DNA from: Pycnopodia helianthoides
Lineage: Eukaryota; Echinodermata; Asteroidea; Forcipulatida; Asteriidae
Assembly: GCA_032158295.1 (NCBI GenBank)
Contig: CM063252.1
Location: forward strand, 18,124,036-18,188,035
DNA length: 64,000 nucleotides
Reading direction: 5' to 3'
Position 1 is the stretch's first letter. Each line of letters starts with the position of its first letter. The notes under the pieces were generated by a model. The model saw only the letters and a list, made by a program, of their open reading frames with translations, did not search any database and was not told the DNA's origin. The translations under genes were made by a program, and so were the position numbers. Below are positions 26,301-56,516 of the stretch, one piece after another.

Positions 26301-26330
26301 ATTCATTGTTCCATATTTTCTTGTATATTA

Positions 26331-33746: not shown

Positions 33747-36700
33747 ATGATGGAATTGTGCATGAAGCCCATCCGACAAAAGATCCAGCTCAGGTCGCTG
33801 CAGAGAGCTGTAGAGAGGCATTAAGAGCTCATTATAGGACCACAGGTAGCTATGTGCGACTAATACCATGGGAGGATGATGACACAAAACATATCAAAGA
33901 TATCTTTACAGAGTTAACATTGGAGAAATCTGGACAGAAACTGGAATCATATAAGGATATTTTCCGTCAGAGAACAAGAGATGGTGATCTCATAAAACGG
34001 GTTATTTTGAATGGGTTACCTGGTAGAGGGAAGTCCACCATCACAGATAAGATGGCATATGATTGGGCATGTAATGAAACACTGCAGCAGTTTGAGCTTG
34101 TATTTGTTTTAAGAATGAGTGCAGTTGAACAAAGCACAGAGCTAATTGACTCAATTTTTGCACAACTTTTAGCCGAAGACACTAAGATAGATAAAGGTGC
34201 TTTGGGTTCTTTTATCAGGGACAATGAAGAGAAAGTACTGATCTTGTTAGATGGCTTTGATGAGTTAATGACCCCTATACCTGCCCTTCGTAAAACCTTA
34301 TTTGGTTCAATTTTAAAGATCCTCAACTGTAAGAAAGGCAGAGATTGTTGTGTAGTTGTTACAACTCGCACCTCTCACTATAATAACTTGGTGACAAGGT
34401 CATTGGTTCAAGAACCTTTCACACAGGTCAGGGTTGAAGGTTTTGATAAGGACAGTATCAAGAAGTATGTGACAAAATTTTACTCGGATGAACAAAGCAA
34501 AGCTGAAGGACTTCTCCAGAGGATCAATTCCTCAAATGTTTTATCTGATTTGGCAAAGAGTCCAATGCTACTTCTGTTGATGTGCATTTTGTGGAGAGAC
34601 AATTCTACACTCCCAGAAACAATGTCCCGTATCTACAGTGAGGCATTGGAGTACATGTTTAAAAGAAAAACTGAAATGTCATCATCTGAAATATCAAAAG
34701 TAACAACTGAACTTGGAAAGATTGGCTTGCATGGTCTTCTTGCTCCAAAACAACAACTTGCTTTTCCTGAAGAAATGTTTGTACCAAGTGCGCTTGAATC
34801 TGCCATAAAAGCAGGTTTTCTTACAAGACAAAAGGTCTTGAAGGGAATGAAAAGTCACAACAGCATTCAGTTCCTGCACAAGACTTTTCAAGAGTTTTGT
34901 GCTGGTAAATACTTACAAAGCTTATTAGAAACAGACACGGTGGAATTCAAGAAGAACCTAAATGAAATGATCAACTCTGGGGCTAATGGTTTTGAATATG
35001 TTTTGCGGTTTTGTGCTGGTGACAATATGGCGTGTACCAGTAGCATTTTACAAACACTGGCTAAATCCTACAAACTCAAAGAAGAACAAGAAAGACACAA
35101 AAGAAAGCCAAACAAAGGTACACCCCTCATGCATTTAGGCCTGAACTGCTACTTTGAGGGTCAGTCAAAAGATTTACCTCCAGTGGAATTCATAAAGTCT
35201 GTTCTAACAGATTCTATCGTCATTAATAGTTGGACCAGAGACAAGCTTAACTTCTTCACATACTTTCTTCAAAATGTTCATACCCACACAATGGAAAGCA
35301 AACAAACTGATTATCTTGACAAGGTACGGTCAGTAGAGATACATTATTGTCACTTGGGAGGGTGTATGTCAGATTTGGCATACTGTATGAGTTTAATGGT
35401 GAATCTTTCATCATTGAAATTGCGACATTGCACATTGAATGACAGTATATTAAGTAAAACATTTGCTGCATCATTAGGAGTAACCTCAAATCCAGTTGGT
35501 TCTGCATCATGGGCCCATCACTTCAAGAAGATGAAGAAACTTGAGAAGCTAATTATAGATAGTTGCTCATGGGCAGAAGAAGATAAGACACATATTGCTC
35601 CTGCACTGTGTGATCTGCCCAACTTGGTTGAATTGAGCCTTTTGGGAAATACCTACTTGAGGGGTTCTGCTGCATTATGGGCCTATCACTTCAAGAAGAT
35701 GAAAAAACTTGAAAAGCTAGTCTTGAGACTCTGCTCATTGACAGGTGAAGACATGACACATATTGTTCCTGCACTGTGTGATCTGCCCAACTTGGTTGAA
35801 TTGAATGTTGATATAAATAAAGGCTTGGGTGGTTCTGCTGCATCATGGGCCCATCACTTCAAGAAGATGAAGAACCTTCAGAAGCTAGTCTTGAGTCACT
35901 GCTCATTGACAGGTAAAGATATGACACATATTGCTCCTGCACTGTGTGATCTGCCGAACTTGGTTGTATTGCATCTTGCGAGAAATATAGAATTGGGTGG
36001 TTCTGCTGCATCATGGGCCCATCACTTCAAGAAGATGAAGAACCTTAAGGAGCTAGACTTAACAAACACTTCATTGACAGGTGAAGATATGACACATATT
36101 GCTCCTGCACTGTGTGATCTGCCCAACTTGGTTGAATTGGATCTTTATGGAAATATGGGCTTAGGAGGTTCTGCTGCAGCATGGGCCCATCACTTCAAGA
36201 AAATGAAAAACCTTCAGAAGCTAGTCTTGAGTCACTGCTCATTGACAGGTGAAGATATGACACATATTGCTCCTGCACTGTGTGATCTTCCCAACTTGGT
36301 TGAATTGGATCTTTATGTAAATATGGGCTTGGGTGGTTCTGCTGCATCATGGGTCCATCACTTCAAGAAGATGAAGAACCTTCAGAAGCTACGCTTGGTT
36401 GGCTGCTCATTGACAGGTGAAGATATGACACATACTGCTCCTGCACTGTGTGATCTGCCCAACTTGGTTGAATTGAATCTTTGGGGAAATAAAGGCTTGG
36501 GTGGTTCTGCTGCATCATGGGCCCATCACTTGAAGAAGATGAAGAACCTTCAGAAGCTACACTTGGGTTTGTGCTCATTGACAGGTGAAGATATGACACA
36601 TATTGCTCCTGCACTGTGTGATCTGCCCAACTTGGTTGAATTGAATCTTTTGGGAAATGAAGGCTTGGGTGGTTCTGCTGCATCATGGGCCCATCACTTG

Positions 36701-37015
36701 AAGAAGATGAAGAACCTTCAGAAGCTAGTCTTGATTGACTGCTCATTGACAGGTGAAGATATGACACATATTGCTCCTGCACTGTGTGATCTGCCCAACT
36801 TGGTTAAATTTAATCTTAAGGGAAATTACGGCTTGGGTGGTTCTGCTGCATCATGGGCCCATCACTTCAAGAAGATGAAGAACCTTCAGATGCTATTCTT
36901 GTTTAAGTGCTCATTGACAGGTGAAGATAAGACACATATTGCTGCTGCACTGTGTGATCTGCCCAACTTGGCTAACTTAGATGTTGAGGAGTATGACTTA
37001 AACGATGATGGTTGA
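33747..37015 (+). CDS. NLR1: NACHT-LRR receptor, large terminal exon
   Basis: NLRs are cytosolic STAND ATPases that oligomerise after sensing a ligand or danger signal, usually through the LRRs. The exon starts after tttcaatcag in phase 1 and encodes ~1089 residues to TGA at 37,013. Order: an N-terminal helical stretch (CREALRAHYRTTG, LIPWEDDDTKHIKDIF); Walker A GLPGRGKST at 34,013-34,039; Walker B ILLDGFDEL at about 34,241-34,267; sensor-1 VVVTTRT at about 34,350; winged-helix motif FLHKTFQEFCAGKYL at about 34,870; and nine 56-residue double-LRR units from 35,500 to 37,012. All ATPase motifs are intact. No death-fold effector domain is visible in the window. Paralogue NLR2 is ~90% identical outside the LRRs. 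Confidence 0.92.
35500..37012 (+). repeat. NLR1 LRR array, nine 168 bp units
   Basis: Each unit encodes two LRRs with the framework GSAASWAHHFKKMKNLQKL, then a variable strand, CSLTGEDMTHIAPALCDLPN, LV.L.L..N..L. Unit length is exactly 168 bp through the whole array. The framework is nearly unchanged even at third codon positions, whereas the strand positions differ in almost every unit. Confidence 0.95.
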
Positions 37016-37137
37016 GATGACTAACTTTAGAACAAGAGCTAAACTCGGAGGTGCTGTTGTAAGATTTAATGGTGACTTTATAACATACTGCACTGCATCC
37101 TTCCTTGCATATGCTAGTAATGTACATGGATAAGGTA

Positions 37138-37180
37138 TCTGAAGATGTGACACGTACAAATTGTTCCTGCACTGTTGATT
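37138..37180 (+). pseudogene. Stray LRR remnant after the NLR1 stop
   Basis: gaagatgtgacacgtacaaattgttcctgcactg matches the LRR unit word gaagatatgacacatattgctcctgcactg with a few changes, ~125 bp past the stop codon. It shows that the array once extended further. Confidence 0.75.
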
Positions 37181-37197
37181 TGATTCTTGTTTAACAG

Positions 37198-37725
37198 TAG
37201 TTGATCAAGTGTCCCATGGCTTAGATGAATTCATATTTGACTTCTTTAGACCTTACAGGTGAATCCACTCCAATGTAACACACCAATGTAGTTGATCAAG
37301 TGTCCCATGGCTTAGATGAATTCATATTTGACTTCTTTAGAACTTACAGGTGAATCCACTGAATTGTAACACACCAATGTAGTTGATCAAGTGTCCCGTG
37401 GCTTAGATGAATTCATGTTTGACTTCTTTAGACCTTACAGGTGAATCCACTGAATTGTAACACACCAATGTAGTTGATCAAGTGTCCCATGGCTTAGATG
37501 AATTCATATTTGACTTCTTTAGAACTTACAGGTGAATCCACTGAATTGTAACACACCAATGTAGTTGATCAAGTGTCCCGTGGCTTAGATGAATTCATGT
37601 TTGACTTCTTTAGACCTTACAGGTGAATCCACTGAATTGTAACACACCAATGTAGTTGATCAAGTGTCCCGTGGCTTAGATGAATTCATGTTTGACTTCT
37701 TTAAGCCTTACAGGTGAATTACAAT
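37198..37725 (+). repeat. 91 bp minisatellite behind NLR1
   Basis: The unit tagttgatcaagtgtcccrtgg ... ggtgaatccactgaattgtaacacaccaatg recurs at exact 91 bp spacing (37,198, 37,289, 37,380, 37,471, 37,562, 37,653). Units 2/3 and 4/5 alternate the same variants (catggc/catatt then cgtggc/catgtt), giving a 182 bp higher-order repeat. NLR2 has no such array after its stop. Confidence 0.95.
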
Positions 37726-37865
37726 CTAATATCACACACCATCCAAGTTTCGTCAAACATCAACCCCCCGCCTCCGCACGCATGGGATGCAGATGTGCTA
37801 TATTTTTCCATATTCCACGAGTGCGCGATTTTGATAATGAATTTATCTTCCAACTACCAATCAGA

Positions 37866-39705
37866 AATTGAAGTTGTAGGCTAGTCTTGCAGAAGCGCAC
37901 CTAGGTACGCTCGAAGAGCAGTAAACACGCACCATCAGATACTATTAAAGTTGTTTATGGCTTTATAAACCTCAGCTGCTGCCAATCAGGATCGAGGATT
38001 TACATGCTGCTGCCAAACAAGAAGCAGTTTTGTATTTGGTAAAATCTGAGTTAGGCACAGCTAGGCACAATATGTGTTTGGTTAAAACTATGACTCCCTC
38101 ATCGGTGATTCCCAGAGCAGTCTAAATAGAATGTGCTCAGTTGTTTTAACCATAGCATTCGAAGCAGTCAATATTTGTGATATCATGTGGTGAATGCATC
38201 TACGTAGTACACAGCTAGTTCTGTGCACAGTTCTTCTACCATACACAACCCATGCAGTTGAGTGGTTCTGAATGGTGAAAGGAGTGTAGTAAGACATATC
38301 AGTGACTCACTTATATGTGTTACATGTAAATAATGACAACTATTATAACTAAGCAATCTTATTGTGTCAATACAATGACAGAAACATGGTGCAAAAATTA
38401 AGCAACATGTCACTATTTTTTAATGTAAATAATGATAAATCTTCTTGAGGTGTTGTACAAGAATCTACAAGAATCCAATGAGTGAAACAATTCATAAAGA
38501 TGTAAAAATATAAAGCATTCATCACTCTCTGTATTATGGAAATAATGACAAATCTTCTGTATAGATATTTGTTTATAACCAAACACTCTCTTGGAGGTAT
38601 ACAAGAATGCAATCAAAGATGCAGTTCAAGGTATAAAGCATGTTTCACTGATTGTATCAATATAGCAAAGTACGTTTTTGCTCTGCTAAGTTGAAGGAAA
38701 TATATTGTGCTATTTAGTTAAAATGAATACTCTTATAGCTGTCTCTGCTGTCATGATATTAACTTTATTTGTATTGCGGGTTTAACAGTTCCCTAGAGTG
38801 ATGGGGGATGTTTCTTTTGTAATAAAACAAGAAATCAATTAAATAAGTATCCAGTGAAATAATAGAAACTTATGGAGAAATATTTTTTCATTATTTCTCT
38901 AACAAAGGGCAACTTTTCCCTTATTGTGTTATTTACAAGAATAGTCATGTGCCAAGAAGAACTTCAGAACTGTTCCATTCCAATCTACGTTTCATTTCAA
39001 TTTAATTAATTATGTTAACTTTTGTGGTTGCCTGGATGTAGCACCCTGATCTAAATAGAAGTTGCTACTCTGTAAAAGCTCTGTTATTATTTGTTTTGTT
39101 AAGGGTATACAGATATCTGTTGAACACACACTGTAATATTGTTTATTGCATGACAGGATTTAATAAGCATGACACAGCATTTTATTTGAAGAGCACAATC
39201 ATTCTGATTCTCTAGTTTCCAAAAAACAGATCAAACGACCAACCAATGAATGGTTTATCTTTGAATGTGATCATAAATAATGGTTTATGGTTTGACATGG
39301 ATTTGGGGCATGTTAATAGAAAGGCTTATTTTGATTGATTTAGATTAAAACAAGAACCAAGTGTTGGAGGACAATTTTGCAACATGTTCAAGATTGTCCC
39401 CCAATTGGTCCATGGTTGTATTTTAGACAGAAGTAGTTTGCTGGACAATTGACATTGTTATCAAATGAATATACACTAAACCTGTAGATTTATAAATGAC
39501 CATTTATTTCTTTGAACAGAACTAATAAGGCATAATAACTTTAAAAACAAAGTACATTATTGGTAATTATTTAAAAAATATGGTCAGTTTTAAACTGACA
39601 GCTCACTGATGATAAAGTTCATGTCAATGCCATTGTGAAAGTTGAAGTGAGAAAACAAACAAAGACTCCATAAGTCACTGTTGCTTATTTTGGTTGCCAA
39701 AATAT
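37866..39705. repeat. Segmental duplication block A, copy 2
   Basis: This is the closest copy of 16,800-18,640, differing by scattered substitutions and small indels. The right end stops at ttggttgccaaaat and is joined directly to block B, so the remainder seen in copies 1 and 3 was deleted. Confidence 0.93.
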
Positions 39706-41350
39706 GGTTCACATATCCTTTCACTTTGTTAAGTAGGTCCGTGTGTACTGCTTTTAGCCTAAAATCCGTTTTCATTGTCTTATAATTATGTATCACATGT
39801 TTAATAGCAGAAACTGATTTGATTAAGTGAGACCGAATTGTCTGCTTGGGTCGGGTACTGACATAAGGTAAGCTCGCAAAAAAGCGCATTGATTTCAAAA
39901 TGTGGTTTGAGTAAACGGCCCGGGCGTGGCAGGACGATTTTGGTTACTCTTTCCTGGTTGGTATTGAGTAGAAGAGTCGTACTTGTGAAGTTTTCTGAAA
40001 TTATCTTGATTTTAACATCGTCCATGGCATTGTTTCTGACTGTATAATGCAATATGTAGGAGGGTGTACCTTGTAGAAACCCGAAGTGAGTATAGTTTGT
40101 GTTTTATTCCCTGATTACTGAAGAAATTATGAAAAACTGTTCTTTTTCAAGACTGACATTGAGCCAACCCATCACCCTCCGTACCTCTGGTGGGTGCAGT
40201 ATGACGCACTTGCGGGTGATATGGGTCATGTGTCACATGCAAATTTGCATATATAATACGCTACAGTGTTATGCGCGAGCGGTGGATGGAGGAAATGAAG
40301 TGGTGAGATTAACTGAACTTTTTTGCGTCGGATTTGTTAAAAAATAATAATAATAATAATAATTCACAGCCTAAATTCTACAAAGCTGCAAGAGAACCAG
40401 AAGCATTCAATAAAATAGAGTTTGAGTTTGACAAATTTTGTTTCAATAAATCACTTTTAAAAGAAACGGATGATTTTACTTGTGATGGCAATTTGTTCCA
40501 TAGGCTTGGCGCAGTATGTGAGACAGATCGGTCTCCCCATGAATGATTAGATATGGGCTCAATAAGGAAGTTACAATTGTAATACCGAAGGAGCGTATGA
40601 TTTAAGAAGACCATCAATACATGCTGGGGCACTGTTAGTGATTTATAGCTATACACAAAGAGCAGAAGTTTGTACTTAATCTTACTGCTACTGGTAACCA
40701 GTGTTACTCTTTTAGAATAGGTCTAATATGGGAGGACGTTTTAGTCAAGGTAATAACACGAGAAGCAGAGTTCTGAAATCACTGAAGACGTTCAATTTGA
40801 GTACAAGGAAGACCATGTAAAAGTGAGTTGCACATGTCGAGTCTGAAAAATACGACGGAGGGGACTATCTGCTCAGTTGCATTCTGTGTCAAGTATTTTC
40901 TTACACTACCGATATGACGAATGTGAAATGTCGTAGAACGTGCAATAATAAATTAGATAATATTATGCTAACTGAGTGTCATGGAAGAGTCGAATGTAAA
41001 ACCAAGATTACTAGCTTTAGTAACAGGGGTTATTGCTGAGTAACCTATATCTAATACGGGGGATAGAAACGTTAGATAGTTGTTGACGTGAACCAATTAT
41101 CATGAATTCTGTTTTGTTATCATTAAGTTTAAGGATAATTATTGTCTTGCATCCAAACACGAATTTTACTAAACAAAATAATGTTTCAATACGTGCGATG
41201 CTCTCATCAGCAAAACTCTTGGAAGTTTTAAAAAAGAGAAACAAAAACACAATTTAGAAGAGATATTTTTGTTGCCATGTCAACAGCCGAATTCCAATTC
41301 AAGGGTGGTTTGGCCCCTTTTTCGATTTTGGAAGAGTGAAAATTGTCTGT
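39706..41350. repeat. Segmental duplication block B, copy 2
   Basis: Matches 22,965-24,540 across its length, including the tail with ccctttttcgattttggaag and ttcaaggtcgtgctaccat. That tail is also the left end of block A copy 1 (16,690-16,808), showing how the blocks are chained. Confidence 0.9.
40370..41170 (-). mobile_element. Antisense LINE 3' relic, better-preserved copy
   Basis: The reverse complement reads HTAPSLWNKLPSQVKSSVSF near 40,470 and LKLNDNKTEFMIIGS near 41,120, both standard for the C-terminal half of CR1/L2-like reverse transcriptases. Stops and indels separate the pieces. It is the duplicate of the relic at 23.6-24.4 kb. Confidence 0.8.
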
Positions 41351-41404
41351 ATTCAAGGTCGTGCTACCATTAAAACAGCATAATGATAAAAATCTTCATT
41401 AAAA

Positions 41405-41670
41405 GTTAAAAAACATGACACACATTCTAAGAACATGGATTTGATCTTCAAGGTGTAATGAATCCATTCATAACACTCTAAACATCGATGAAAAATTATT
41501 TGAAGAAAAAACGAACAAAAACTTACCAGAAAACTGACCGAAATGTCCATGGACCGCACTTCCACTAAATCAACCAATCAGCGTAAACCAAACCGTTGTG
41601 TAGGCGTGGCGATCGTCTCGTGTGCGACTGTGCGTGCACGCAGTTAATGTATTTAACGGATTTACCCTAA
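41405..41670. mobile_element. Internal fragment of the 43.3 kb foldback family
   Basis: aaaaaacatgacacacattctaag ... gttaatgtatttaacggattt is almost identical to 43,430-43,682, without the terminal gttgcgataatcg ends. Confidence 0.88.
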
Positions 41671-42724
41671 CTTTAGAGTCAAACTGTTACGTCTTGGGAT
41701 TTTAGTTGTTGCCAAGTCAACCTTTTGGTAACAGTGGTTTTAGACAATTGGGGCGGGGGTGCTGCTCATCAATTGTTTTGGGGTTTTTCTCAAAAAAATG
41801 ATTTATGTGTATGATTTTATCAAAACATTGCGGGAAATGTCAACTTCAGCAGAGCAAATCAGGCGCGCTAAGTCAGATGATTGGTTTACGCCCAATTTAG
41901 GGCGCCGCCCACCTTTCTTTGCCCGTCGCTAGAGGTTTAAACCCAGCGCAGATATGTTTTTACAAACCAGGTGTAGGCAGACCGATAACTGAGATGTTTG
42001 GAGCGGCATTTAATGTTAATAAGCTCTGTAGAGGTATACTTATACACAGGCGTGAGCAGTGGGTTGGATAAATTAGTAGACTTTTCACAAGCAGAACAGT
42101 GTGTTTGTGTTCTGGGCCAGGATTGGAGTTAATATCCCCAATAATATAGCACAAGTATTACCATGGTTGCCATGGTTCCCAGGACTGTACGATGTTCTGC
42201 TTCATGTTTTATTCTAATCATAAACCAGTGCCGTATACGATCCTTGTTGGGAAAACTCGAACCAAAGTCCCGTTCAGGTGCGCAACAAGCTGGAATGGTG
42301 TTCGCTCACTGGAGAAAGTTGTTCAACGGGCTCAAACACATTGGTTTTGAAGTTGATTTGAGCAGCCTTTCTGTGGTAGCTCTACCGGCAAAGAATTGCA
42401 GCCCACCTTGGGCTGTCGGCTCTCTTTTATCATTGGTCTGCGACTATGATAAGACCGATATTAAAAGAGAATGATAAACAGCTCAAGAAGGTGGGCTAGT
42501 GCTGTGGACTTTTACCTCCATGGTATTGATATCGTCTCATAATTAATTGAGGACAGTGTGCATTAGCAGAAGAATTTACACCTTCATAATCATATCTTGG
42601 ATTTCAAATAATAAGAGTAAGCCGATGGGTCGGATCTTTTTCTTTTTCACCGAACAGTCCAACTATAACCACAATGACTGTGACAGCTTCGTCTTCACGA
42701 ATTAATTTTTATTCTCATTGACTT
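41671..42724. other. Intergenic with a LINE-like 5' fragment on the minus strand
   Basis: No gene is supported. The 103-codon plus-strand frame at 42,163 overlaps DNA shared with 22,550-22,830 and is not read as coding. A 2A-like motif on the minus strand is listed separately. Confidence 0.4.
42113..42139 (-). other. 2A-like motif (GDINSNPGP) in a short relic frame
   Basis: The reverse complement reads CYIIGDINSNPGPE. The core resembles the ribosome-skipping 2A consensus D-[VI]-E-x-N-P-G-P, with Asn replacing the Glu. Such motifs occur at the N-terminus of APE-type LINE proteins in echinoderms. The frame around it is short (64 codons) and looks decayed. Confidence 0.45.
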
Positions 42725-43289
42725 TTGTAGGGAAATAAAGAAGTGCGCCCTCATTGTTTCAACAAGTTCGTGCCAGATTTGTTGGTCCGGCCGGGCACAC
42801 GTGCCACCACCTAGCTAGCCTCCAGAGCTCCATGGGATCATGATAAAGAATTATACGTTCTCTGATAATTCTTGATTTTAATACCGTCTATGGCATTATC
42901 CATGGCTGTATAACACAAGGTGGCGTACCTTGCAGACCAAGCAGTGAGTATTTGTTGTTTATCTCGTGAGAGTCCATGATTATTGTCCTGAATAAATGAA
43001 ACTGTTCTGAAGTTCGGTACTGACTCATTTACAATTACAGTCATTGCGTTACTGTGTAGGTTAGTCAATCCAATCTGGCGTGATAGAGTTCAGAAATGAT
43101 GGAATATGTGTTTTTTTGTCAAGTTTGCAGGATTATTTTGTTCACAGCCAGACATAGCCTAGGCCTACAATTACAAAGCTACAAGAGAATACAGACAACA
43201 TACAGCTTCACAGGGGTTTTGAAATAGAAATGACTTGATTTAGGGCCTATGGGCACAATTTCATGCCTTTGGCTTTATATAGTTCTTTT
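42725..43289. repeat. Segmental duplication block C, copy 2 (left part)
   Basis: gaaataaagaagtgcgccctc ... cagcttcacaggggtttt aligns with 24,650-25,137. The right part continues at 44,290 and 47,415 after two insertions. Confidence 0.85.
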
Positions 43290-43290
43290 A

Positions 43291-44473: not shown

Positions 44474-44706
44474 ATTGTTGTTGTTGTTAAGAAGTGAAGT
44501 GTGTGCGCCGTCGGCAGCCCCTCGCGACTGGTCTCCGCAAATTCTCAATTTTCTCAGCTTTTTGGTGGTGTATCTAAGCATCTACACCCAAGACAGCAGA
44601 GTGACCGGTATTGGACTTTATTAAGCAACTTTGTGGCAGGCAAGTAAAAACCCTTGATTATCATCAAGCAAGAACTAACATTTTGTGTTCCTGTCACCGC
44701 CACTAT

Positions 44707-46200
44707 GATTCCACCATGATGCACCACTGGGGCTACTACCTGCTACTTGCGTGTGCTACATGTACCTGTATACACATCTCTTCAATGTGCCCACCCATGT
44801 GTAATCACACATCCCAGCAGTTGCTGAGGTACAGCAGCAGCATGCTTAGGGAAATACGATCCAACATGTCTCCTCAAAATCTGAAACTACCCAACAATGT
44901 GTATAACCATACCCTGGGTCTTGGTATTGCCAAACGGCGTCATATCCATAGGGGCTGTAGGGGCGGAGAACACAAACAACGAAATGTAAATGCATCTTCT
45001 AGTTCACTTGCTATACCCAGTAACAAATCTCTCATGACAACTCTGGGTTTGATGAACTGTCAATCGGCATGTAACAAGGCTGATATAATCAAGGACTACA
45101 TTCAAGATCACAACATGGACATAATTGCCCTAACTGAAACTTGGTTTAAACAAAATGACGACAAATCCCCTGCTGAAGTCACCCCCAGGGGTTTCAAGCT
45201 TGTTCACGCCCCTAGAAAGGCAAGGAGAGGTGGTGGTGTGGCTTTACTATACAAATCTGGACTTGCGGTGTCCGTTGCTAAGCAAACACATGACAACCAG
45301 ACGCCATCTCACAGTTCTTTTGAACACATTGAAGTCGACATTATTGTTAACAACCAACACTTGCGTTTCATTGTACTGTATCGACCACCTCCATCAGCAA
45401 AGAATAGAGCCCCATTCAGTGTGTTCACCGCGGAATTCACAGAACTTCTTCGCAGACAAGCACTGTTTCCGGGAATTCCGATTATCTTAGGAGACTTCAA
45501 CATCCACTGGGACAAAAATACTAACGAGTCAAGATTACTGAGTGATCTACTTATGCAATACGATCTGCAACAATTGGTAGATTGTGATACACAAAAGTCC
45601 GGTCACATTATTGACTTTGTCATTACCCGCCGATCAGACACTCTCATTCAATCGGTATTAGCTTCTGAGTATGTTTCTGACCATTGTGCAGTCACTTGCA
45701 TCCTGAACCTTCGGAAACCCAAATACACAAAAAGCCTACTCCACTACCGCAAAGTCAACTCCATTGAATTGGACAAGTTTGCTAATGACGTCACAACATC
45801 TCCCCTCATTACAGCTCCAGCGTTGACGATTAACACTCTCGCCGATCAGTATAACAGTGTGCTCGGTCAGCTGATCAATTCCCATGCACCTCTGAAGACA
45901 CGCTACATTGTTGATCGGCCTGCTGTCCCTTGGTACAATGAGCGTATCACACTTGAAAAGCGTCAACGCCGCCAACTAGAAAGGAAATGGCGGAAATCCA
46001 GGCGTGTAATTGATCATGACATTTTCAAAACACAGCGTGGCCTATGTAAACGCATCTTTGCTGAAGCCAAGTCTAATTATTACCACGAGAAAATACAAGG
46101 CTGTGAAGGTAACCAAAAGGCACTCTTTGAAATAACAAATCACCTCATGCACAGGAAAACAATCCACAAGCTCCAACTGAAAAGCGTCCGAGGGAACTAG
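44707..46200 (+). CDS. LINE ORF remnant: AP endonuclease domain
   Basis: This is the intact 5' portion of the retrotransposon protein. The endonuclease nicks target DNA to prime reverse transcription. The conserved residues seen are the TETW glutamate, the RGGG loop, GDFN, and SDH near the end of the domain. Upstream residues are Cys/His-containing (CATCTCIH, CPPMCNH), but no clear zinc finger is formed. The reading frame ends at TAG 46,198-46,200, soon after the start of the region that would lead to RT. It cannot support autonomous transposition. Confidence 0.85.
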   Translation, partial: DSTMMHHWGYYLLLACATCTCIHISSMCPPMCNHTSQQLLRYSSSMLREIRSNMSPQNLKLPNNVYNHTLGLGIAKRRHIHRGCRGGEHKQRNVNASSSSLAIPSNKSLMTTLGLMNCQSACNKADIIKDYIQDHNMDIIALTETWFKQNDDKSPAEVTPRGFKLVHAPRKARRGGGVALLYKSGLAVSVAKQTHDNQTPSHSSFEHIEVDIIVNNQHLRFIVLYRPPPSAKNRAPFSVFTAEFTELLRRQALFPGIPIILGDFNIHWDKNTNESRLLSDLLMQYDLQQLVDCDTQKSGHIIDFVITRRSDTLIQSVLASEYVSDHCAVTCILNLRKPKYTKSLLHYRKVNSIELDKFANDVTTSPLITAPALTINTLADQYNSVLGQLINSHAPLKTRYIVDRPAVPWYNERITLEKRQRRQLERKWRKSRRVIDHDIFKTQRGLCKRIFAEAKSNYYHEKIQGCEGNQKALFEITNHLMHRKTIHKLQLKSVRGN

Positions 46201-47316
46201 CGGACAGATTTTCGGCTTACTTTTCCTGCAAAATCGATCAGATCAGAAGTGACCTGGTTTCAAATCAAATGGCCCCCATACCCACACCTACCACAGAAAA
46301 CAGTAGCCCTAACCCTATCCCACCATCGAGTCCAACCCTCGTAACCTTGAGACCTGCTTCGGAGGACGAGATCGCCAAGATAATCAAGAGTTCTCCTCCC
46401 AAATCATGCCCACTGGACCCTCTACCGACAGCGCTGGTCAAATTGCAAGGAAACATAATTTACAGCCACACTTCTACGCCGACGACACACAATTATACAC
46501 AACTTTCAGTCCCAACTTGGTAGATTATCACGACAACATCCTCTTGTCACTCACCAACTGCTTACATGACTTCCATGCTGGACAACTTTCTCAAATTCAA
46601 TCCTTGTAAAACGAAGTTCATAATAATCTCCTCTCCACAACTCCGTAACAAAGTTTCCATCCAACACATTCAGATTGGCGATACCCAGGTCATACCAAGC
46701 ACAGATGTACGTAATCTCGGCGTGCTCTTCGACCAGTGCATGAACCTAGAGAAAACATGTCTCCCGTGTCTGCCAAACTTCATATATACACCTTAGACGC
46801 ATTGCCATGATCAGACATCTACTTTCTATGAAGGCAGCAGAGCAGCTCATCCATGCGTTTATCACTTCCAGACTTGACTTCTGTAATAGTCTACTTGCTG
46901 GCCTTCCGCAGAGCACGCTGCAGCGTCTTCAATCTGTTCAGAACGCTGCAGCACGTCTCTTGACTGGTAACAAAATACATGACCACATCACTCCCATCCT
47001 CTATAATCTACATTGGCTTCCCATCAAACACTTCAAAATAATCATTCTCACTTTCAAGGCACTCCATGGTTCAGCCCCACTCTACATTCAAAACCTGTTG
47101 ACTCCCCGTACTACAAGACCAGGTCTAAGATTCACCAGCAACATGCTCCTTGTTCCCCGGTCTCGTTTAGCCAGCTACGGGGACAGGGGTTTTTCCAGCA
47201 CAGCACCCAGGCTCTGGAATTCACTCCCTGAAAACCTCAGGGAAATACACAACATCTCACTCTTTCAGCAGCTACTGAAGACACACCTGTTCACACTTGC
47301 TTTTCCTACCACTTGA
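46201..47316 (+). pseudogene. LINE reverse transcriptase remnants (frameshifted)
   Basis: Pieces in different frames cover the pre-RT segment (PSSPTLVTLRPASEDEIAKI), the YADD box, the thumb-region motif RNLGVLFD, and the C-terminal tail from MIRHLLSMKAAEQLIHAFI to LPENLREIHNISLFQQLLK. The last piece (46,807-47,316) is open for 169 codons. Several hundred residues of the RT core are absent between 46,440 and 46,460. Confidence 0.85.
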
Positions 47317-47414
47317 GAATTCCCTCCTTTCCATCTTGACCGGCGCCTTCGAATGGTTTTTGTATCAGATTCAGTGCGCCTTTACAAATGCTGTGTAATT
47401 ATTATTATTATATT

Positions 47415-48447
47415 TCTTGCATGCGGTGTGGAATGTCACAAACACAAAGAGTCCATTTAACACAGTACTCATTTTGGGGTGTAGTAGCCTTGGTAGGCAA
47501 CAGTGTCTGCTGGACCTTTATACCCTGGACTCCGTCACGTTGTATGCAATTGAGGAGTCCAACCTGGGCTAGGGGTGCTGTAGCTTTTCAAGAATGCACA
47601 CAAGACCCAACAGTAAAAAAGCCATTAAGGGTGGGGGAACTAGACTAGAAAACCAGTCTTACCATGAGGGAAGCTAACTGCCAGTTTGTGAACTACAAGG
47701 GAATAATATGCTGAGTATAAACAATGAAGCGTTTGATAATTTAAATGTTAAAATAATCTATTTCATTGAGCAAAGTGATTCATTATTCCATATTTTCTTG
47801 TATAGCAGATGCTAGAAGAGTACAGCAATTGCAAGCCCATCCAACAAACAATCCAGCCCAGGCTTCTGTAAAGAGATGTAGAGAGGCATTAAGAACTCAC
47901 AGGACCACAGCATAGGTATGGATGGTCAGTGATTGTTTTCACCTCAGTTCCAAGTCAAGTCAGAGATTGCTTTAAGATTATATTTATTTTGGATAAGTAA
48001 CAGTTAGGTAATGGTCTGAATTTGCATAGGAACATTACCAAACTAACATTGTACAACAACATTAAGGAAATTGATGTCCAGAGACATGTATTCAACTATG
48101 GCGCTTCTGACTGGGGTTCTAGACGAATGGTGACAAGATCTTAAACGTATGGCTGTGAACGCCCAACGCACTTTAGCCAACCGGTCTTAAACAGCTCCAG
48201 CTATGTCTTTATCAGCTGTTTGGTTTAACATGGTCAAACAACTCTACATTGACTTTAAAATAGGTAAGGACTACTGGCAACATCAGTGAAAATTTCTAAT
48301 TTTTCTGATTGTTGGGTTAATGAGCCTGGTTAAAGAACTGATTGTTCTTGGAATTGAAAGTAAGACTTCATTATATTACTGACCAGTATTTCATGAACTT
48401 TGACATTTCATCAGATGTAGATTGTTTGTCTTGATCCATAGACAGGA
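47415..48447 (+). other. Block C end and NLR2 upstream region
   Basis: 47,415-47,500 aligns with 25,445-25,520, and 47,780-48,440 aligns with 26,300-26,810 plus 29,230-29,440. The promoter of NLR2, or an upstream intron, should lie in the last ~200 bp. No distinct core-promoter motif is visible. Confidence 0.5.
47806..47916 (+). pseudogene. Fragment of the NLR large-exon start, second copy
   Basis: After tatagcag it reads AHPTNNPAQASVKRCREALRTHRTTA-stop, homologous to 26,331-26,452 and to the start of the NLR terminal exon. The TAG stop replaces the CAG of the first copy. It was duplicated along with the block before decaying separately. Confidence 0.7.
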
Positions 48448-48670
48448 ATGATAAACAAACACACAGTCTTTCATTTGAGAAAATATTTTTCTTTGATTCC
48501 TAAGATTCTGTCAGATATGGCTGACCGGAGTGAGGAGACCAAGGAAGAGGAAGAGATGGCCAGGCAATCTCAAGAACCAGAACAAAGATCATTGGCTGTT
48601 GTTGAAAACATTCAACCATTGCCAGAAACAAGAGACTTAATGAGAGCAGAAAACACACAAATGCTTCAAG
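48448..48670 (+). CDS. NLR2 first recognised coding exon
   Basis: ATG (MINKHTVFHL) follows an in-frame TAG, then MADRSEETKEEEEMARQSQE and so on, ending atg ctt caa g|gtataa in phase 1. It is seven codons longer than the NLR1 exon at the 3' end because of an insertion (ENTQMLQ region). No domain is recognised; the composition is acidic and probably disordered. Confidence 0.65.
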
Positions 48671-49671
48671 GTATAAATTTACTGTGATTAGAGTCAATCT
48701 GTATGATTTGACATTTATCTGTAGATGAATTGTGTAATATGGGGAACCATTATCTCTAACCAAAAACACATAATTTGGTTTGATTTGATTTCTAGTTTTA
48801 TTCCACAAACCAGAACTACTCCCAGCACCCTGGAGAAGGGAAACAACAATATTTTTTAAATAATACAAATAAAGCTAACACTGTAGGAAGAGTTAGCAAA
48901 GAGCATTCATTTTAACCCTTATTTGCAGAACAAATTTCCTTTAACTTAGCAGATATACAAATGATTTTGCTAAACAATGCACAATACCTTTTTTCTGAAG
49001 GTCATGCATGTCAGAAGGTCAGAAAAATAAATTTATGCATTCAAATAACTACTAAGTTCTACATTGCATTCACAGACAGTATCATACACAATGTTTTTTT
49101 TTAAAGGATTATACATCAGACAAGAACATACAACATGCATTTCCATTTTCATTTCTTTCATGTGGACAAATGTATTAATGAAATTCTAAGCCGCTGTATC
49201 TTGCAGTTTCTACAAGTAGTTTATGAGCTGAGCATCTAAATCTAGCCAGATAATGTCTGTATGGAGGATTATCAAAAACATGAATACGGTTCTACGTTTA
49301 TCTTATACGTCCAGAGTAGATTCTTGGTTATAAATTTTTTTGACCGGACGTTCTTTTAGTATCATGTAACCAACCTACACCAGCTATACAAAAAAATTCA
49401 TTACAGACTTGCCAACAATTGTAGTAATCATAGAAGTAAAACAAAGTAAAGTCTTTTAAGGTGAATTAAGAGTCATCTTCAAATTCAACACATTTCAGCT
49501 TTCCTGTGATGTGTTTACTAACAGAAGATTATTCCAAGTTGGGGGTGGGGAGATTGGCTTGTTATGACATGAATTCAGACTGAAGATTAGACTTTGTGGA
49601 CAAAGAAGACTTTGGAAGTAAACTGTTGCATCCTTGATGTAGAAATGACTCTTCTTCATTGCCAACAGCAG

Positions 49672-49812
49672 ATAATCCAGCAAGTAAAGGAGCATGTGTG
49701 ATGGATGTCCAATCTTTGTCTCTACACCACACAGAAGGCAGCGGTAATTTATCTGTGAGCAATCCTAGCAATTGTACATTCAACATTCTACAGTTCAAGC
49801 AAGGAACAACAG
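49672..49812 (+). CDS. NLR2 small exon with GSG-NP-NC motif
   Basis: A phase 1/1 exon between a tandem acceptor (cag cag at 49,666-49,671) and gtaagg. It reads DNPASKGACVMDVQSLSL and then GSGNLSVSNPSNCTFNILQ. The second part is a strand-turn-strand-like motif shared with NLR1 (GSGHLTVINPKNCQINI). The tandem acceptor permits a 3 nt choice adding one residue. It is of unknown function; its place, ahead of NACHT, is where NLR effector modules sit. Confidence 0.65.
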
Positions 49813-50233
49813 GTAAGGCCTACACATTAGGAACTTTGGTATATATATATTTTTTTTCAACATTGAGTTTCAAAAATATTCAACATAAATTAAAATTCAT
49901 TCTGATTTTGTTGTGGAAAAGACAAATGTGTAAATGGTTTGTTTGATTATCTAAAACATCAATACAGAGGACTCTGGTAGTTTGGATAATTTCATATCGA
50001 CAGAATAGATGTATGGTGATAAGGTTTGCAGTTTCACCATAAAAATATTATCTCTAAAATAAGTTGTGATAAATCTAATACATCATTGAGTGAGGCTTCC
50101 CGGTTTGTATCTAGATTATGCTTCCAGTATGGAGCATTTTTCTCTTAATCATTTTAGTTTAGCAAGAGTTTTCTCCATCATATTTAATTTTATTTTATTT
50201 GCCGTTATTTTTCTCTTTAACTTTGCATTGCAG

Positions 50234-50314
50234 AGGATATCTTACCAGCATTGGAGAAATTAACTGCCCCTTCAAAAGAGAAACCAACTTTGGACTCAGC
50301 AGTGAAACCAACAG
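50234..50314 (+). CDS. NLR2 small linker exon
   Basis: An 81 bp phase 1/1 exon between tttgcattgcag and gtaatt, encoding EDILPALEKLTAPSKEK then PTLDSAVKPTG. Lysine- and proline-rich, probably a flexible linker. I found no counterpart in the NLR1 intron, so NLR1 has lost it or NLR2 gained it. Confidence 0.6.
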
Positions 50315-51190
50315 GTAATTTATTCAACCAAAAACTTGTCAATCTGAGATTGTCATTTTTAATTCAACCTTAATATTTATTATAAGAAAATTACATTACT
50401 TGGAAAACTTTAGTCTGAAAGCTTTCTCGGTATAAGTGATTATTGGTTCCATCCATCAAAAGCAATTTTATCTGAAATGTGCTATGTAAATGGGTCTCAT
50501 AATTCAAAAGTTGAGCATAGGCCTACCTGTTTTTAATATAATAAGCACTTTTAGATGCCTGTAGATAAAGCACTAGTAAGAACTGAAATACCAATTTACC
50601 ATAAAGCAGATACACACTGATAAGGACCACTTCAACTCTATGACCAGGACCAATCCTCATAATAACTTATTTTGCATTGAATATTGCCATAGTTAAGGAA
50701 ATAACAAGTTGAAAACCCCCAACTCACTTACTTTGATTGCAGCAATCAAAACAATTAATTATAAGCGTGCACAAAAGATGGCACAAAATAACTGTCAAAA
50801 CATAAATAATTTGTTTTCTTCCCCTGAAACATTACCGCATCATATGGGATAAAATAATTCACAGGTTGGTAATTGTTTTGGTGAGTTTGAAAAATCCAAA
50901 ACCAATGACCTATCTCCTAAAACACAGGAACATTTGTATTTGTACATGATGTATCCATTCCCTGGTGGCAATGTTTTGATAATGAGGCTTGAAGTGTCAA
51001 AAATCTCTGAAATTAATGTCGCTCCCTTCAAGACAGTCCAATTTTAGACCTAGAATTTCATTCCTTGAGAAGGATTGCCACTTTCTTATGAGCTTCCTAA
51101 AATCTTCTTTAATTTTGTAAGCATTGATGAAAATAAAACGTTGATATATGTTGATATTTGATCAAACATGCCCAATAAACATTCTTGCAG

Positions 51191-51286
51191 GATCTGAACA
51201 AGAGTGCACTCCACCAGAGATTCCAAAACTAGATGACTCCTCCCAAGCTGTTGCCAGTGGAAGGTCATTACAACCCAATACCTCAG
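51191..51286 (+). CDS. NLR2 linker exon
   Basis: A 96 bp phase 1/1 exon, nearly identical to 30,826-30,921 (one Ala to Val and one Lys to Asn change). It reads SEQECTPPEIPKLDDSSQAV. It joins in frame to the large exon at 53,032. Confidence 0.8.
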
Positions 51287-53031
51287 GTAAGTACATGGTG
51301 TAATTTCTTATGATGGTAAACTTAGGAAAAGAATAGACATGGTTGCAGGTTTGTTTTACTAAATATTCACTACTCAAGTAAAGCATACAATTGATGGATG
51401 CAGATATTTTTTGTTATTTCTTATACTTTTGACAGAAGTTACAAACAGTTCCATGATATAGCAAACATCCATGTTCAGTGTTGATTGGTTAAGATGGTAT
51501 TGGTGATTAATAGATTCAAGCTTACAATGGAACAAATTATGCAAAGAAATTAAGCACCACTATAACTGAAATGTCGTCATTAAGAAAAATGTTGATAAAT
51601 TTATTGTTAAAACTATATTGGCTTTCTGCCAAATTTGTTTCAAAATGAAATAATTGTAATGAAATTACACAAGGACATTTTATGAACTGTGTTTTGAAAT
51701 TGATGAAATTGTTTTGGGTTGTAAAGATTGGAATGATACAATTTTCCAATACTTTACCATCTCTTTCATTGTGCTATCCCATCAGTATATCTGTGTTCAA
51801 TTTATTAATTTCATCCGGTTATTATTTTACCTATGACCAACTTCAGGCTTAAGTTATTGACTCCAAAGCAATATCACAAACACACCTCATAGTTAGGCAC
51901 AAAGATTGTTATTCATGCAACTACCTCTACTGCAATTCAGAAAAAAGGACAACAATTTAGGTCCTGGTTAACTTCCTGGTAGGCCTATCAATTTTGCGTA
52001 GAATTTTCTCAACCCCCAACCGGTATGAGATTAAATTTCTTCATGAGTACAATTTATTCTTCTTGGCCAAAGTAAAGATTGATATAACAATTGTAAGAGA
52101 AATAGTTTCTAAAAACTTCTACACAACAAATTCTCTCATACATATTTGTAAAATGTTTTTACATTATTGTTTGTTGGATTGTACTCTGAGATTCCTTTAT
52201 TGAGATTTTTTTTTAAACCATGTAAATGTTTTGCTCGATGTAAATTAAAACCTGTGCCAAGTTGAGTTTGCAACAACTTCTCACAAATCTGAATTTCTGT
52301 AAAACTTATCTAATTATATTTATTTTAGTTTTTTAAATGCATCAACAGTTTTTCCACCATGTGGTGTTGAACATGGATTATATATTTTTGTACAGATGCC
52401 ATTTTGTTAATGCTGGTTATCAAAATTTGTTATCCAAGTTGATGGCAGAAAAGGCAAACATTTTTCACCATGCTGACGACAGCAATAGTTTATCCTTACA
52501 AATGTGAACTTTTTTATCTTTAGCGATGGATGAAACAGATAGGACCTATTTTAATTTCCAGCACTTCAGATCAGAATTAAATTTTTAAAATCCTGAATTG
52601 GGAATGGCTATATTAACCGCTATAAATGCTCAATGTGGACCTTGATTTTCCACAACAATGTTGGCTTAGTTCAGAATCTGCCAAAAAATCTTATTTGTTT
52701 TGCACAGATGAAGAATTTGTATTTGTCCAAGTATTAGTTTGTGAGTTCGGAACTTGCAGGTTGCCGGAAGCCATCAGATCTTCAAAACATTCCATTCACC
52801 AGATGATATCATTTACCATGCTATTTAGTTTTTCTAGAATATAAAAACCAGGGTGGTTGATATTGAATGGTTAGGCTCTAGGGTGAAATAAATCAATGCT
52901 GTTTTAAGCTATGATTTTACCATTCAAGATATTAGGCTATATTCTTCTCTGTGAAGGCTGTTCTGAATTTATTTATGTTGTTGTTGAATCAAGATTAAAT
53001 ATTCCATATTAAACTTGTTGTTTTCAATCAG
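51287..53031 (+). other. NLR2 intron before the NACHT exon
   Basis: Collinear with the NLR1 intron but ~1.1 kb shorter. It contains the decayed frame at 52,626-52,844. Nothing else is recognised. Confidence 0.6.
52600..52844 (+). pseudogene. Decayed conserved reading frame in NLR2 intron
   Basis: Counterpart of 33,300-33,533: QCWLSSESAKKSYLFCTDEE then FVFVQVLVCEFGTCRLP. The upstream part is out of frame because 11 bp present in NLR1 are missing here. Confidence 0.35.
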
Positions 53032-56000
53032 ATAATGTAAGTGTGCAAGGAGCCCATCCAACAAAAGATCCAACCCAGATCGCTGCAGAGAGCTGTAGAG
53101 AGGCATTAAGAGCTCATTATAAGACCACAGGTAGCTATGTGCAACTGATACCATGGGAGGATGATGACACAAAACATATCAAAGATATCTTTACAGAGTT
53201 AACATTGGAGAAATCTGGACAGAAACCGGAATCATATAAGGATATTTTCCTTCAGAGAACAAGAGATGGCGATCTCATAAAACAGGTTATTTTGAAAGGG
53301 TTACCTGGTAGAGGGAAGTCCACCATCATGGATAAGATGGCATATGATTGGGCATGTAATGAAACACTGCAGCAGTTTGAGCTTGTATTTGTTTTAAAAA
53401 TGAGTGCAGTTGAACAAAGCACAGAGCTAATTGACTCAATTTTTGCACAACTTTTAGCCGAAGACACCAAGATAGATAAAGGTGCTTTGGGTTCTTTTAT
53501 CAGGGACAATGAAGAGAAAGTACTGATCTTGTTGGATGGCTTTGATGAGTTAATGACCCCTATACCTGATCTTAATGAAACATTATTTGGTTCAATTCTG
53601 AAGATCCTCAACCGTAAGAAAGGCAGAGATTGTTATGTAGTTGTTACAACTCGCACCTCTCACTATAATAACTTGGTGACAAGGTCATTGGTTCAAGAAC
53701 CTTTCACACAAGTCAGGGTTGAAGGTTTTGATAAGGAAGATATCGAGAATTATGTGACAAAATTTTACTCAGATGAACAAAGCAAAGCTGCAGGGCTTCT
53801 CCAGAGGATCAGATCCTCAAATGATTTACCTGATTTGGCAAAGAGTCCAATGCTACTTCTGTTGATGTGCATTTTGTGGAGAGACAATTCTACACTCCCA
53901 GAAACAATGTCCCGTATCTGCAGTGAGGCATTGGAGTACATATTTTGCAGAAAAACTTATATGTCACCATCTGAAATATCAAAAGTAACAACTGAACTTG
54001 GAAAGATTGGCTTGCATGGTTTTCTTGCTCCAAAACAACAACTTGCTTTTCCTGAAGAAATGTTTGAACCCAGTGTGCTTGAATCTGCCATAAAAGCAGG
54101 TATTCTTACAAGACAAAAGGTCTTGAAGGGAATGAAAAGTCACAACAGCATTCAGTTCCTGCACAAGACCTTTCAAGAGTTTTGTGCTGGTAAATACTTA
54201 CAAAGCTTATTAGAGACAGACAAGGTGGAATTCAAGAAGAACCTGAATGAAATGATCAACTCTGGGGCTAATGGTTTTGAATATGTTTTGCGGTTTTGTG
54301 CTGGTGACAATATGGCATGTACAAGTAGCATTTTGCAAACACTGGCTGAATCCGACTGGTTCAAAGAAGAAAAAATATTCGAAATTAAAAAGGGGGTACC
54401 CCATATGCAGTTTGGCCTTAACTGCTACTTTGAGGGTCAGTCGAAAGATTTACCCCCAGTAAAATTCATACAGTATGTTCTAACACATAGAGTAGTAATT
54501 TATGGGTGGAACAGGGACAGTCTGAACTCATTCACATACTTTCTTCGAAATGTTCACACCCACACAATGGAAAACAAACAAACTGATTATCTTGACAAGG
54601 TACAGTCAGTAGAGATAGATGATTGTCACTTGGGTGGGTGTATGTTAGATTTGGCATACTGTATGAGTTTAATGGTGAATCTTTCATCATTGGAATTGAC
54701 GGATTGCACATTGAATGACAGTAGTGAAGAGTATGCTGCACTATCAAGAGCAACCTCATATCCATCTTGGATCAATCACTTCAAGAAGATGAAGAACCTT
54801 CAGAACCTAGTCTTGATTACCTGCTCATTGACAGGTAAAGATATGACACATATTGCTCCTGTACTGTGTGATCTGCCCAACTTGGTTAAATTGAATCTTG
54901 GGACAAATAAAGGCTTGGGTGGTTCTGCTGCATCATGGGCCCATCACTTCAAGAAGATGAAGAACCTTCAGGTGCTATATTTGTGTAGGTGCTCATTGAC
55001 AGGTAAAGATATGGCACATATTGCTCCTGCACTGTGTAATCTGCCCAACTTGGTTGAATTGGATCTTGAGAGAAATTACAACTTGAGGGGTTCTGCTGCA
55101 TCATGGGCCCATCACTTCAAGAAGATGAAGAACCTTCAGAACCTAGTCTTGATTACCTGCTCATTGACAGGTAAAGATATGACACATATTGCTCCTGCAC
55201 TGTGTGATCTGCCCAACTTGGTTAAATTGAATCTTGGGACAAATAAAGGCTTGGGTGGTTCTGCTGCATCATGGGCCCATCACTTCAAGAAGATGAAGAA
55301 CCTTCAGAAGCTAGTCTTGATTACCTGCTCATTGACAGGTAAAGATATGACACATATTGCTCCTGCACTGTGTGATCTGCCCAACTTGGTTAAATTGAAT
55401 CTTGGGGGAAATCCTGGCTTGGGTGGTTCTGCTGCATCATGGGCCCATCACTTCAAGAAGATGAATCTTCAGAGGCTAGATTTGAGTGAATGCTCATTGA
55501 CAGGTGAAGATACGACACATATTGCTCCTGCACTGTGTGATCTGCCCAACTTGGTTGAATTGGATCTTGAGAGAAATTTTATGTTGGGTGGTTCTGCTGC
55601 ATCATGGGCTCATCACTTCAAGAAGATGAAGAACCTTAAGAAGCTACGCTTGATTGACTGCTCATTGACAGGTGAAGATATGACACATATTGCTCCTGCA
55701 CTGTGTGATCTGCCCAACTTGGTTAAATTGAATCTTGGGACAAATAAAGGCTTGGGTGGTTCTGCTGCATCATGGGCCCATCACTTCAAGAAGATGAAGA
55801 ACCTTCAGAAGCTAGTCTTGATTACCTGCTCATTGACAGGTAAAGATATGACACATATTGCTCCTGCACTGTGTGATCTGCCCAACTTGGTTAAATTGAA
55901 TCTTGGGGGAAATCCTGGCTTGGGTGGTTCTGCTGCATCATGGGCCCATCACTTCAAGAAGATGAATCTTCAGAGGCTAGATTTGAGTGAATGCTCATTG

Positions 56001-56516
56001 ACAGGTGAAGATACGACACATATTGCTCCTGCACTGTGTGATCTGCCCAACTTGGTTGAATTGGATCTTGAGAGAAATTTTATGTTGGGTGGTTCTGCTG
56101 CATCATGGGCTCATCACTTCAAGAAGATGAAGAACCTTAAGAAGCTACGCTTGATTGACTGCTCATTGACAGGTGAAGATATGACACATATTGCTCCTGC
56201 ACTGTTTGATCTGCCCAACTTGGTTCTATTGAATCTACGGAGAAATTACGACTTGGGTGGTTCTGCTGCATCATGGGCCCATCACTTCAAAAAGATGAAG
56301 AACCTTCAGAAGCTATTCTTGATTGACTGCTCATTGACAGGTGAAGATATGACACATATTGCTCCTGCACTGTGTGATCTGCCTAACTTGGTTAAATTGA
56401 ATCTTTGGGGAAATGGAGGCTTGGGTGGTCTTGCTGCACCATGGGCCCATCACTTCAAGAAGATGAAGAACCTTAAGAAGGTAAACATGAGTGTCACTTT
56501 GCCCAATGACAGGTGA
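53032..56516 (+). CDS. NLR2: NACHT-LRR receptor, large terminal exon
   Basis: Same architecture as NLR1: phase 1 start after tttcaatcag, Walker A GLPGRGKST at 53,298-53,324, Walker B ILLDGFDEL at about 53,526-53,552, sensor-1 VVVTTRT, and winged-helix FLHKTFQEFCAGKYL. An LRR array of about ten and a half 168 bp units follows, ~1161 residues in total. Two units lack one residue (KKMNLQRL, 165 bp). The last unit is cut off: a frameshift turns the normal SLTGED words into LPNDR and a TGA stop at 56,514. ATPase residues are intact, so the protein may still be functional with a shortened C-terminus. Confidence 0.92.
55230..56231 (+). repeat. Recent 501 bp duplication inside the NLR2 LRR array
   Basis: Positions 55,230-55,704 and 55,731-56,205 agree at every base I compared. 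The first difference is at 56,206 (ctgtgtgat to ctgtttgat). The duplicated block comprises three units, 168+165+168 bp, including the unusual 165 bp unit, so its identity is not just framework similarity. Confidence 0.95.

Follow-up and report, generated by a model that had tools for sequence, protein, structure and literature searches.

Near-identical leucine-rich repeat units with variable predicted concave-face codons in two NACHT receptor genes of a starfish

The closest described counterparts of the genes reported here are fungal NOD-like receptors (NLRs). In Podospora, proteins combining a NACHT domain with WD40 repeats exchange their repeat units, and four codons per repeat on the interaction face are under diversifying selection, as stated in the excerpted text of PMC1805685. 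Dyrka and colleagues extended this to ankyrin (ANK) and tetratricopeptide (TPR) repeats, and the excerpts of their paper report no leucine-rich repeat (LRR) motifs (PMC4986451). High internal repeat conservation is described, likewise in excerpts, for het-d, het-e and HNWD of Podospora (PMC1805685, PMC4986451, PMC12222747). Here, two NACHT-LRR genes, termed A and B, were analysed in a stretch of 64,000 nucleotides from the starfish Pycnopodia helianthoides (positions 18124036-18188035 of contig C10, hereafter the window; the assembly comprises 479 Mb in 742 contigs). The best explanation, to which a probability of roughly 0.72 is given as a whole, is that both genes are members of a young starfish NACHT-LRR receptor cluster whose recognition domain is a coding minisatellite. 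The units of A and B are near-identical except at about twelve codons, namely the exposed positions of the predicted strands and two residues after the second strand.

Tandem Repeats Finder (TRF) placed two 168-bp arrays in the window, one of 8.8 copies at 35502-36971 and one of 11.0 copies at 54775-56616. An earlier note on this stretch had described 168-bp LRR units over the span 35500-56513. Sixteen of the 18 full units do have this length, B6 and B9 having 165 bp, and the span consists of two arrays about 18 kb apart, the interval holding the upstream exons of gene B and a fragment resembling a long interspersed nuclear element (LINE). The 56 residues encoded by one unit comprise two LRRs, the first of the pattern LxxLxLxxCxL and the second of the pattern LxxLxLxxNxxL, a pair of the ribonuclease-inhibitor type. 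A sequence search against solved structures matched ribonuclease inhibitor, NLRP1, NLRP14 and NLRC4. In the alignments, the strands of the unit fell onto those of ribonuclease inhibitor. In the fold of that protein, the x residues of the LxxLxLxx motif lie on the concave face. The concave placement of the variable residues is predicted from this motif and from the ribonuclease inhibitor alignment.

The contrast between a frozen framework and variable strand positions proved real and far above chance. A 45-base framework string, allowing up to three mismatches, matched 16 times in the window, always within the two arrays, compared to a mean of 0.00 in 100 shuffles. Within genes, the proportion of synonymous differences (pS) in the framework was 0.094 (A) and 0.049 (B) and the amino-acid difference 0.110 (A) and 0.058 (B), as in near-identical tandem repeats. 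The proportion of nonsynonymous differences (pN) was 0.409 (A) and 0.333 (B) at ten strand codons chosen a priori from the motif (10, 11, 13, 15, 16, 38, 39, 41, 43 and 44). Codons 46 and 47 after the second strand were added post hoc to give a 12-codon set and are excluded from the ten-column tests. Mean amino-acid diversity of the window units was 0.65 at the ten strand columns and 0.11 elsewhere, a difference equalled by none of 20000 column permutations. Six further close loci (C to H), of which five lie at 17.88-17.98 Mb of C10 and the sixth on contig C15, gave 0.69 versus 0.19, again with none of 20000 permutations equal to it.

Ranked by diversity, the top ten of the 56 columns in the window were 16, 46, 43, 15, 13, 44, 39, 11, 41 and 47, so that the variable positions mostly fall on the strands predicted by motif and alignment. 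Two codons fit less well: codon 22 (E/K) is variable off the strands, ranking eleventh, and strand codon 38 is near-invariant. The strand positions had been said to differ in nearly every unit, and 15 distinct strand haplotypes were indeed found among the 18 full units; VLSHCS occurs twice in A, however, and B5-B6 are exactly repeated as B8-B9. The motifs then ascribed to both NLRs all come from gene A, those quoted for a second LRR being the second LRR of gene A units.

Selection was assessed with our own MG94 codon fit on a fixed tree, for the 16 non-identical units of A and B (A+B) and for a larger set from eight loci. The latter started from 44 close-family units; eight with more than four missing codons were dropped to give 36, and B8 and B9, being duplicates of B5 and B6, were removed to give 34. 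In A+B, the ratio of nonsynonymous to synonymous rates (omega) at the 12 strand codons was 6.8 (likelihood-ratio test, LRT, against 1: 24.2), and 5.2 at the ten a-priori codons (LRT 16.5), compared to 0.83 at the remaining 44 framework codons (LRT 0.34). The 34 units gave 2.9 (LRT 22.5), 2.8 (LRT 17.7) and 0.82, respectively. For single genes, strand omega was 5.0 in A (LRT 9.6) and 8.5 in B (LRT 17.4). Strand values below 1 and like those of the framework were thus not found in A and B, where they are above 1 and unlike it. When the silent rate was shared, omega exceeded 1 at an uncorrected LRT >3.84 for 11 of the 56 codons in A+B (10, 11, 13, 15, 16, 39, 41, 43, 44, 46 and 47) and for ten of 56 in the 34 units, none of them outside the 12-codon set. 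After correction for 56 sites, codons 10, 11, 39 and 41 (A+B) and 47 (34 units) would fail.

Given that repeat exchange makes trees unreliable, tree-free counts matter. At the strand codons of A+B, the variation of positions 1 and 2 was 1.9 times that of position 3 (95% interval 1.5-2.7), compared to 0.61 times in the framework (0.39-0.91). The ratio of pN at the 12 strand codons to framework pS was 5.6 (3.6-10.9, bootstrap) for 15 A+B units, without B4, B8, B9 and B10. The evidence for diversifying selection at strand positions is good in genes A and B and weaker in distant arrays. With a shared silent rate, strand omega was 4.4 in C-G and 1.7-2.8 in five arrays beyond A-H, with LRT >3.84 in L037, L038 and L040. 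In this young set, framework omega of about 0.8 is not different from 1, and the near-identity of the DNA hence owes more to recent common origin than to strong constraint. At greater evolutionary distance, the framework protein seems to be under constraint: gene A differs from five A. amurensis (Asterias) genes by 0.12-0.17 in the framework and by 0.24-0.26 in the NACHT exon, although its difference from A. rubens P0005 is 0.23 in either region.

Exchange between units was seen once directly. Gene B contains an exact repeat of 531 bases, and unit B7 shows no differences from B10 in its first part and none from B4 in its later part (Table 1), which makes it a hybrid with a crossover between the two strand segments. 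If the assembly is correct, one unequal exchange added three units and a new strand pair to gene B, and it carried strands and scaffold together. A test for recombination based on site compatibility was significant for B (p=0.0065). The A and B arrays have exact common runs of up to 81 bases. Genes C and E retain their unit order, and C2/C4 as well as E4/E5 have gene-specific silent variants in common, a small sign of copying within genes. Synonymous divergence (dS) of the framework was 0.043-0.151 within genes and thus similar to the 0.048-0.129 between genes; it was below that of NACHT (0.095-0.203) in 14 of 15 gene pairs, the gap being small. The silent divergence of the framework is thus about that of this young gene family itself.

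Gene-specific homogenisation was not seen, the framework being no closer within than between genes. Neither was species-specific homogenisation, the ratio of framework to NACHT divergence being 1.22 within species and 0.70 between them. Units strictly nearest to those of their own gene numbered 12 of 33 in A. amurensis and 11 of 19 in A. rubens, where P0001 contains a doubled array. In the NACHT tree, the genes of this genome are not cleanly apart from A. rubens P0005 (supports 36 and 79), and the tree was therefore not used as proof of concerted evolution.

Altogether, these data suggest that a young amplification, shuffled by exchange and combined with diversifying selection on point changes, is a simpler account than homogenisation of the scaffold alone. 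The latter was the version of the earlier note; in the form considered here, gene conversion would homogenise the framework preferentially and old strand variants would be kept, strand segments being older than the scaffold. We regard it as unlikely, though it carries some weight in view of the silent changes. The fitted silent rate was higher at strands than in the framework in all eight separately fitted sets, barely so in L038, with an LRT of 9.0 in the 34 units, and strand columns also had a higher third-position diversity (p=0.038 in A+B, 0.0002 in C-H). The variants common to C2/C4 and to E4/E5 also lie at strand codons. The claim of almost no synonymous drift thus holds for the framework, but not for the strand codons, which carry more silent change. 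This speaks to some extent for scaffold homogenisation, but the excess was not significant in A+B (LRT 0.56) and may be either an artefact, as multi-step changes at saturated codons could inflate the fitted strand rate, or a sign of older strand segments. Between framework codons interleaved with the strands and those farther away, no significant difference in silent divergence was seen (LRT 2.3 for the 34 units and 0.08 for A+B). As this comparison gave no significant difference, as the exchange in B copied strands and scaffold, and as the framework is no closer within genes, homogenisation that spares binding positions is unsupported as worded; unequal exchange is directly shown for one event. 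The earlier interpretation is partly supported overall.

A raised silent rate at strand codons would also be expected from targeted hypermutation of these codons, germline or somatic, for instance by a deaminase. However, codons 13 (C), 15 (T), 39 (A), 41 (T) and 44 (A) vary at positions 1 and 2 and keep the third base given in brackets, although 16 and 46 do not keep it. A constant third base at several variable codons favours selection over local hypermutation, and this account is the least probable of all. Ordinary LRR evolution, with structural positions conserved and exposed ones drifting under relaxed constraint, can draw on the fact that consensus positions are conserved in any LRR protein, and on the 51 arrays from relatives whose exposed positions are less conserved, since in 28 of them the strands do not stand out at p<0.05. 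It is nevertheless disfavoured for A and B and considered very improbable. Their exposed off-strand positions are as frozen as the rest (0.11 in A and 0.10 in B, compared to 0.63 and 0.57 at the strands), unlike those of porcine ribonuclease inhibitor, six units of which gave no significant contrast (0.78 versus 0.68, p=0.20), and the pattern thus exceeds the ordinary LRR consensus. Furthermore, relaxed constraint cannot yield omega values of 5-8.5.

Several results weigh against a young, exchanging array under diversifying selection. The 531-bp duplication may be an assembly error, and the recombination test was not significant for A (0.35), A+B (0.08) or all units (0.25). Only 4 of 36 units in this genome are strictly nearest to units of their own gene. 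Trees are stated to be unsafe on exchanging repeats in the excerpts on Prdm9 (PMC3890296). In C-H, the tree-free ratio was 1.3 at the strands (0.99-1.79), with 0.73 in the framework (0.52-1.01). When the strands were given their own silent rate, strand omega fell to 1.5 in C-G (LRT 2.1) and to 0.9-2.4 in the five arrays beyond A-H, of which only L040 passed (LRT 3.9). Where the exposed positions of relatives' arrays are less conserved (51 arrays), the median ratio of strand to other diversity was only 1.2, and 23 of the 51 reached p<0.05.

The contrast between strands and framework extended beyond the close family. A genome-wide NACHT search gave 56 matches above the cut-off, some of which are pieces of one gene. 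The loci studied are the better matches of another list, in which 150 of 192 candidates were scored. Unit matches occurred in 28 open frames, and the 17 with at least four units of at least 46 residues were tested. Fourteen of these 17 arrays were more variable at the ten strand positions than elsewhere (p<0.05, uncorrected); the exceptions were both arrays of L045 and the array of L047. In some arrays, such as that of L042, the variation was found mainly at the first strand. From relatives, the best 120 of 164 proteins were taken, 98 of which had unit matches and 72 of which were tested; isoforms and near-duplicates are included, and the arrays are hence not independent. The contrast was found in 63 of the 72 (p<0.05, uncorrected) and in 23 of the 24 arrays with the most conserved framework, including arrays of Patiria and Acanthaster. 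Compared with exposed off-strand positions, the strands were more variable at p<0.05 in 19 of 21 conserved arrays. An orphan array of about three units was observed in L036 on C15 (about 4581-5043, + strand), with no NACHT match within the 9 kb examined.

The starfish genes resemble the fungal NLRs, as far as the latter are covered by the excerpts cited above, in combining NACHT with near-identical tandem repeats and in having few diversifying codons per repeat on a predicted interaction face. Unequal exchange is proposed to reshuffle the fungal repeats, and one such event was found in the starfish. The fungal repeats are of the WD40, ANK or TPR type, whereas those of the starfish are LRRs in an animal. 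Concerted evolution and repeat-number polymorphism are documented for the fungal genes, while the starfish genes are known from one assembly, and Podospora repeats cluster essentially by gene, unlike the starfish units. By analogy, the starfish arrays may work as the fungal system does, with a different repeat type and in a different kingdom, rather than being a proven member of it. The zinc-finger array of PRDM9 is likewise a coding minisatellite with mostly nonsynonymous unit diversity at few contact codons; it differs in binding DNA, in family and function, and in its documented allele diversity (PMC3890296, excerpts). The zebrafish NLR-B30.2 genes are also an expanded animal NACHT-LRR family with gene conversion and selection, but selection acts on the B30.2 domain, and the excerpts describe the LRRs as not particularly variable (PMC4852459).

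The variable lymphocyte receptors (VLRs) of jawless fish, with which the earlier note had compared the logic of these genes, are likewise built of LRR modules with diverse recognition positions. They are assembled somatically from germline-incomplete genes and cassettes, whereas the starfish genes have open frames in the genome and include a NACHT domain. Given the fact that NACHT and array share one open genomic frame, a VLR-like somatic assembly is without support, and the likeness is one of logic only. Flanking cassettes of the VLR kind were not found in the window, where the framework probe matched only inside the two arrays. No description of such arrays in echinoderms was found among the titles and abstracts of the matches listed from the open-licence literature.

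The identity of both genes follows from their domains and relatives. NACHT (PF05729) was detected with E=4.4e-25 in gene A and E=1.8e-24 in gene B, with bit scores of 88.9 and 86.9 in the two genes compared to a curated cut-off of 26.7. LRR_4 and LRR_1 were above cut-off in the C-terminal arrays in the Pfam scan. NB-ARC, the hallmark of plant NB-LRR proteins, stayed under its cut-off of 23.5 with 20.5 and 23.2 bits. Two Asterias species, A. rubens and A. amurensis, supply the NACHT-LRR proteins that match gene B best (70-74% identity for the first six), and proteins of Acanthaster and Patiria come next. The upstream exons of gene B, traced by eye, are short and have plausible splice sites and continuous phase. 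When six relatives were scanned against Pfam (E up to 0.01; for P0001, among the best 25 families), no effector domain was found at the N-terminus. A Death-domain exon (PF00531, E=2.1e-5) lies near gene E (L033, 9136-9477, - strand), and a similar open frame near gene G (L035); no match to it was found inside the window at E up to 0.01. The features are collected in Table 1.

Table 1. Coordinates of the features of genes A and B in the window.
Feature	Position	Strand	Basis or remark
Gene A, upstream exon matches (3 of 4 exons)	29510-29641, 30065-30142, 30825-30920 (span 29510..30920)	+	tblastn with A. amurensis and A. rubens relatives
Gene A, large 3' exon: NACHT, linker, LRR array, terminal stop codon	33743..37015	+	Open frame 33710-37015; start from tblastn of Asterias proteins and acceptor judged by eye
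Gene A, array: 8 full 168-bp units (A2-A9) and truncated A10	35516..36988	+	TRF
Gene B, four upstream exons	about 48517-48670, 49672-49812, 50234-50314, 51191-51286 (span 48517..51286)	+	tblastn
Gene B, large 3' exon: NACHT, linker, LRR array, terminal stop codon	53032..56516	+	Open frame 53013-56516
Gene B, array: 10 full units (B2-B11; B6 and B9 of 165 bp), then degenerate unit	54774..56447	+	TRF
Exact 531-bp repeat, copy 1 (lag 501)	55174..55704	+	
Exact 531-bp repeat, copy 2 (30-base overlap with copy 1)	55675..56205	+	
Hybrid unit B7	55611..55778	+	Equals B10 to unit position 94 and B4 from position 65

Some further observations were made around both genes. A non-coding minisatellite of 91 bp (5.7 copies, 96% matches, 37197-37719) lies directly downstream of gene A, and TRF detected no comparable 91-bp array downstream of gene B. 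The LINE-like fragment mentioned above (44605-47316), which separates the gene A array from the gene B exons, contains an endonuclease domain (PF03372, E=9e-16) and a later open frame without a Pfam match. Short fragments at 26113-26447 and 47835-47900 resemble the NACHT exon or its preceding stretch and are probably relics of other family members. An out-of-frame remnant of another unit (56517-56616) prolongs the array past the stop codon of gene B. In gene B, exon 2 encodes a stretch with spaced Gly/Asn residues, which is present in Asterias relatives too and may resemble RHIM-like amyloid signalling motifs. A match to PF21368 (HNH) covered 11 residues within an LRR and was discarded, and an antisense open frame at 36363-36803 spans the repeats and was treated as their by-product.

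In the proposed mechanism, the near-identical framework would serve as substrate for misaligned recombination between units, which would alter unit number and reshuffle strand pairs. Point mutations on the concave face would be retained by selection from changing ligands, either of pathogens or in allorecognition. The array would sense the ligand, upon which NACHT would oligomerise and signal, the diversity being germline-encoded. A further-reaching and rather improbable proposal is that starfish NACHT-LRR arrays are hypermutable coding minisatellites in which unit exchange rewrites the concave-face code frequently enough for individuals, and possibly the immune cells of a single animal, to differ in their receptor arrays, and that they might be, by analogy, an animal counterpart of the fungal allorecognition NLRs.

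The combination of near-identical repeats, exchange and selection on a contact face is documented in fungal NLRs with WD40, ANK and TPR repeats, and the present data suggest it for LRR-bearing NLRs of animals. Arrays that join a conserved framework to variable strands are also present in proteins of Asterias, Patiria and Acanthaster. The data suggest that repeat exchange together with strong selection keeps creating new recognition surfaces. If confirmed, this would be a convergent route to receptor specificities without somatic rearrangement, and the variable codons would provide a testable map of the residues predicted to read the ligand.

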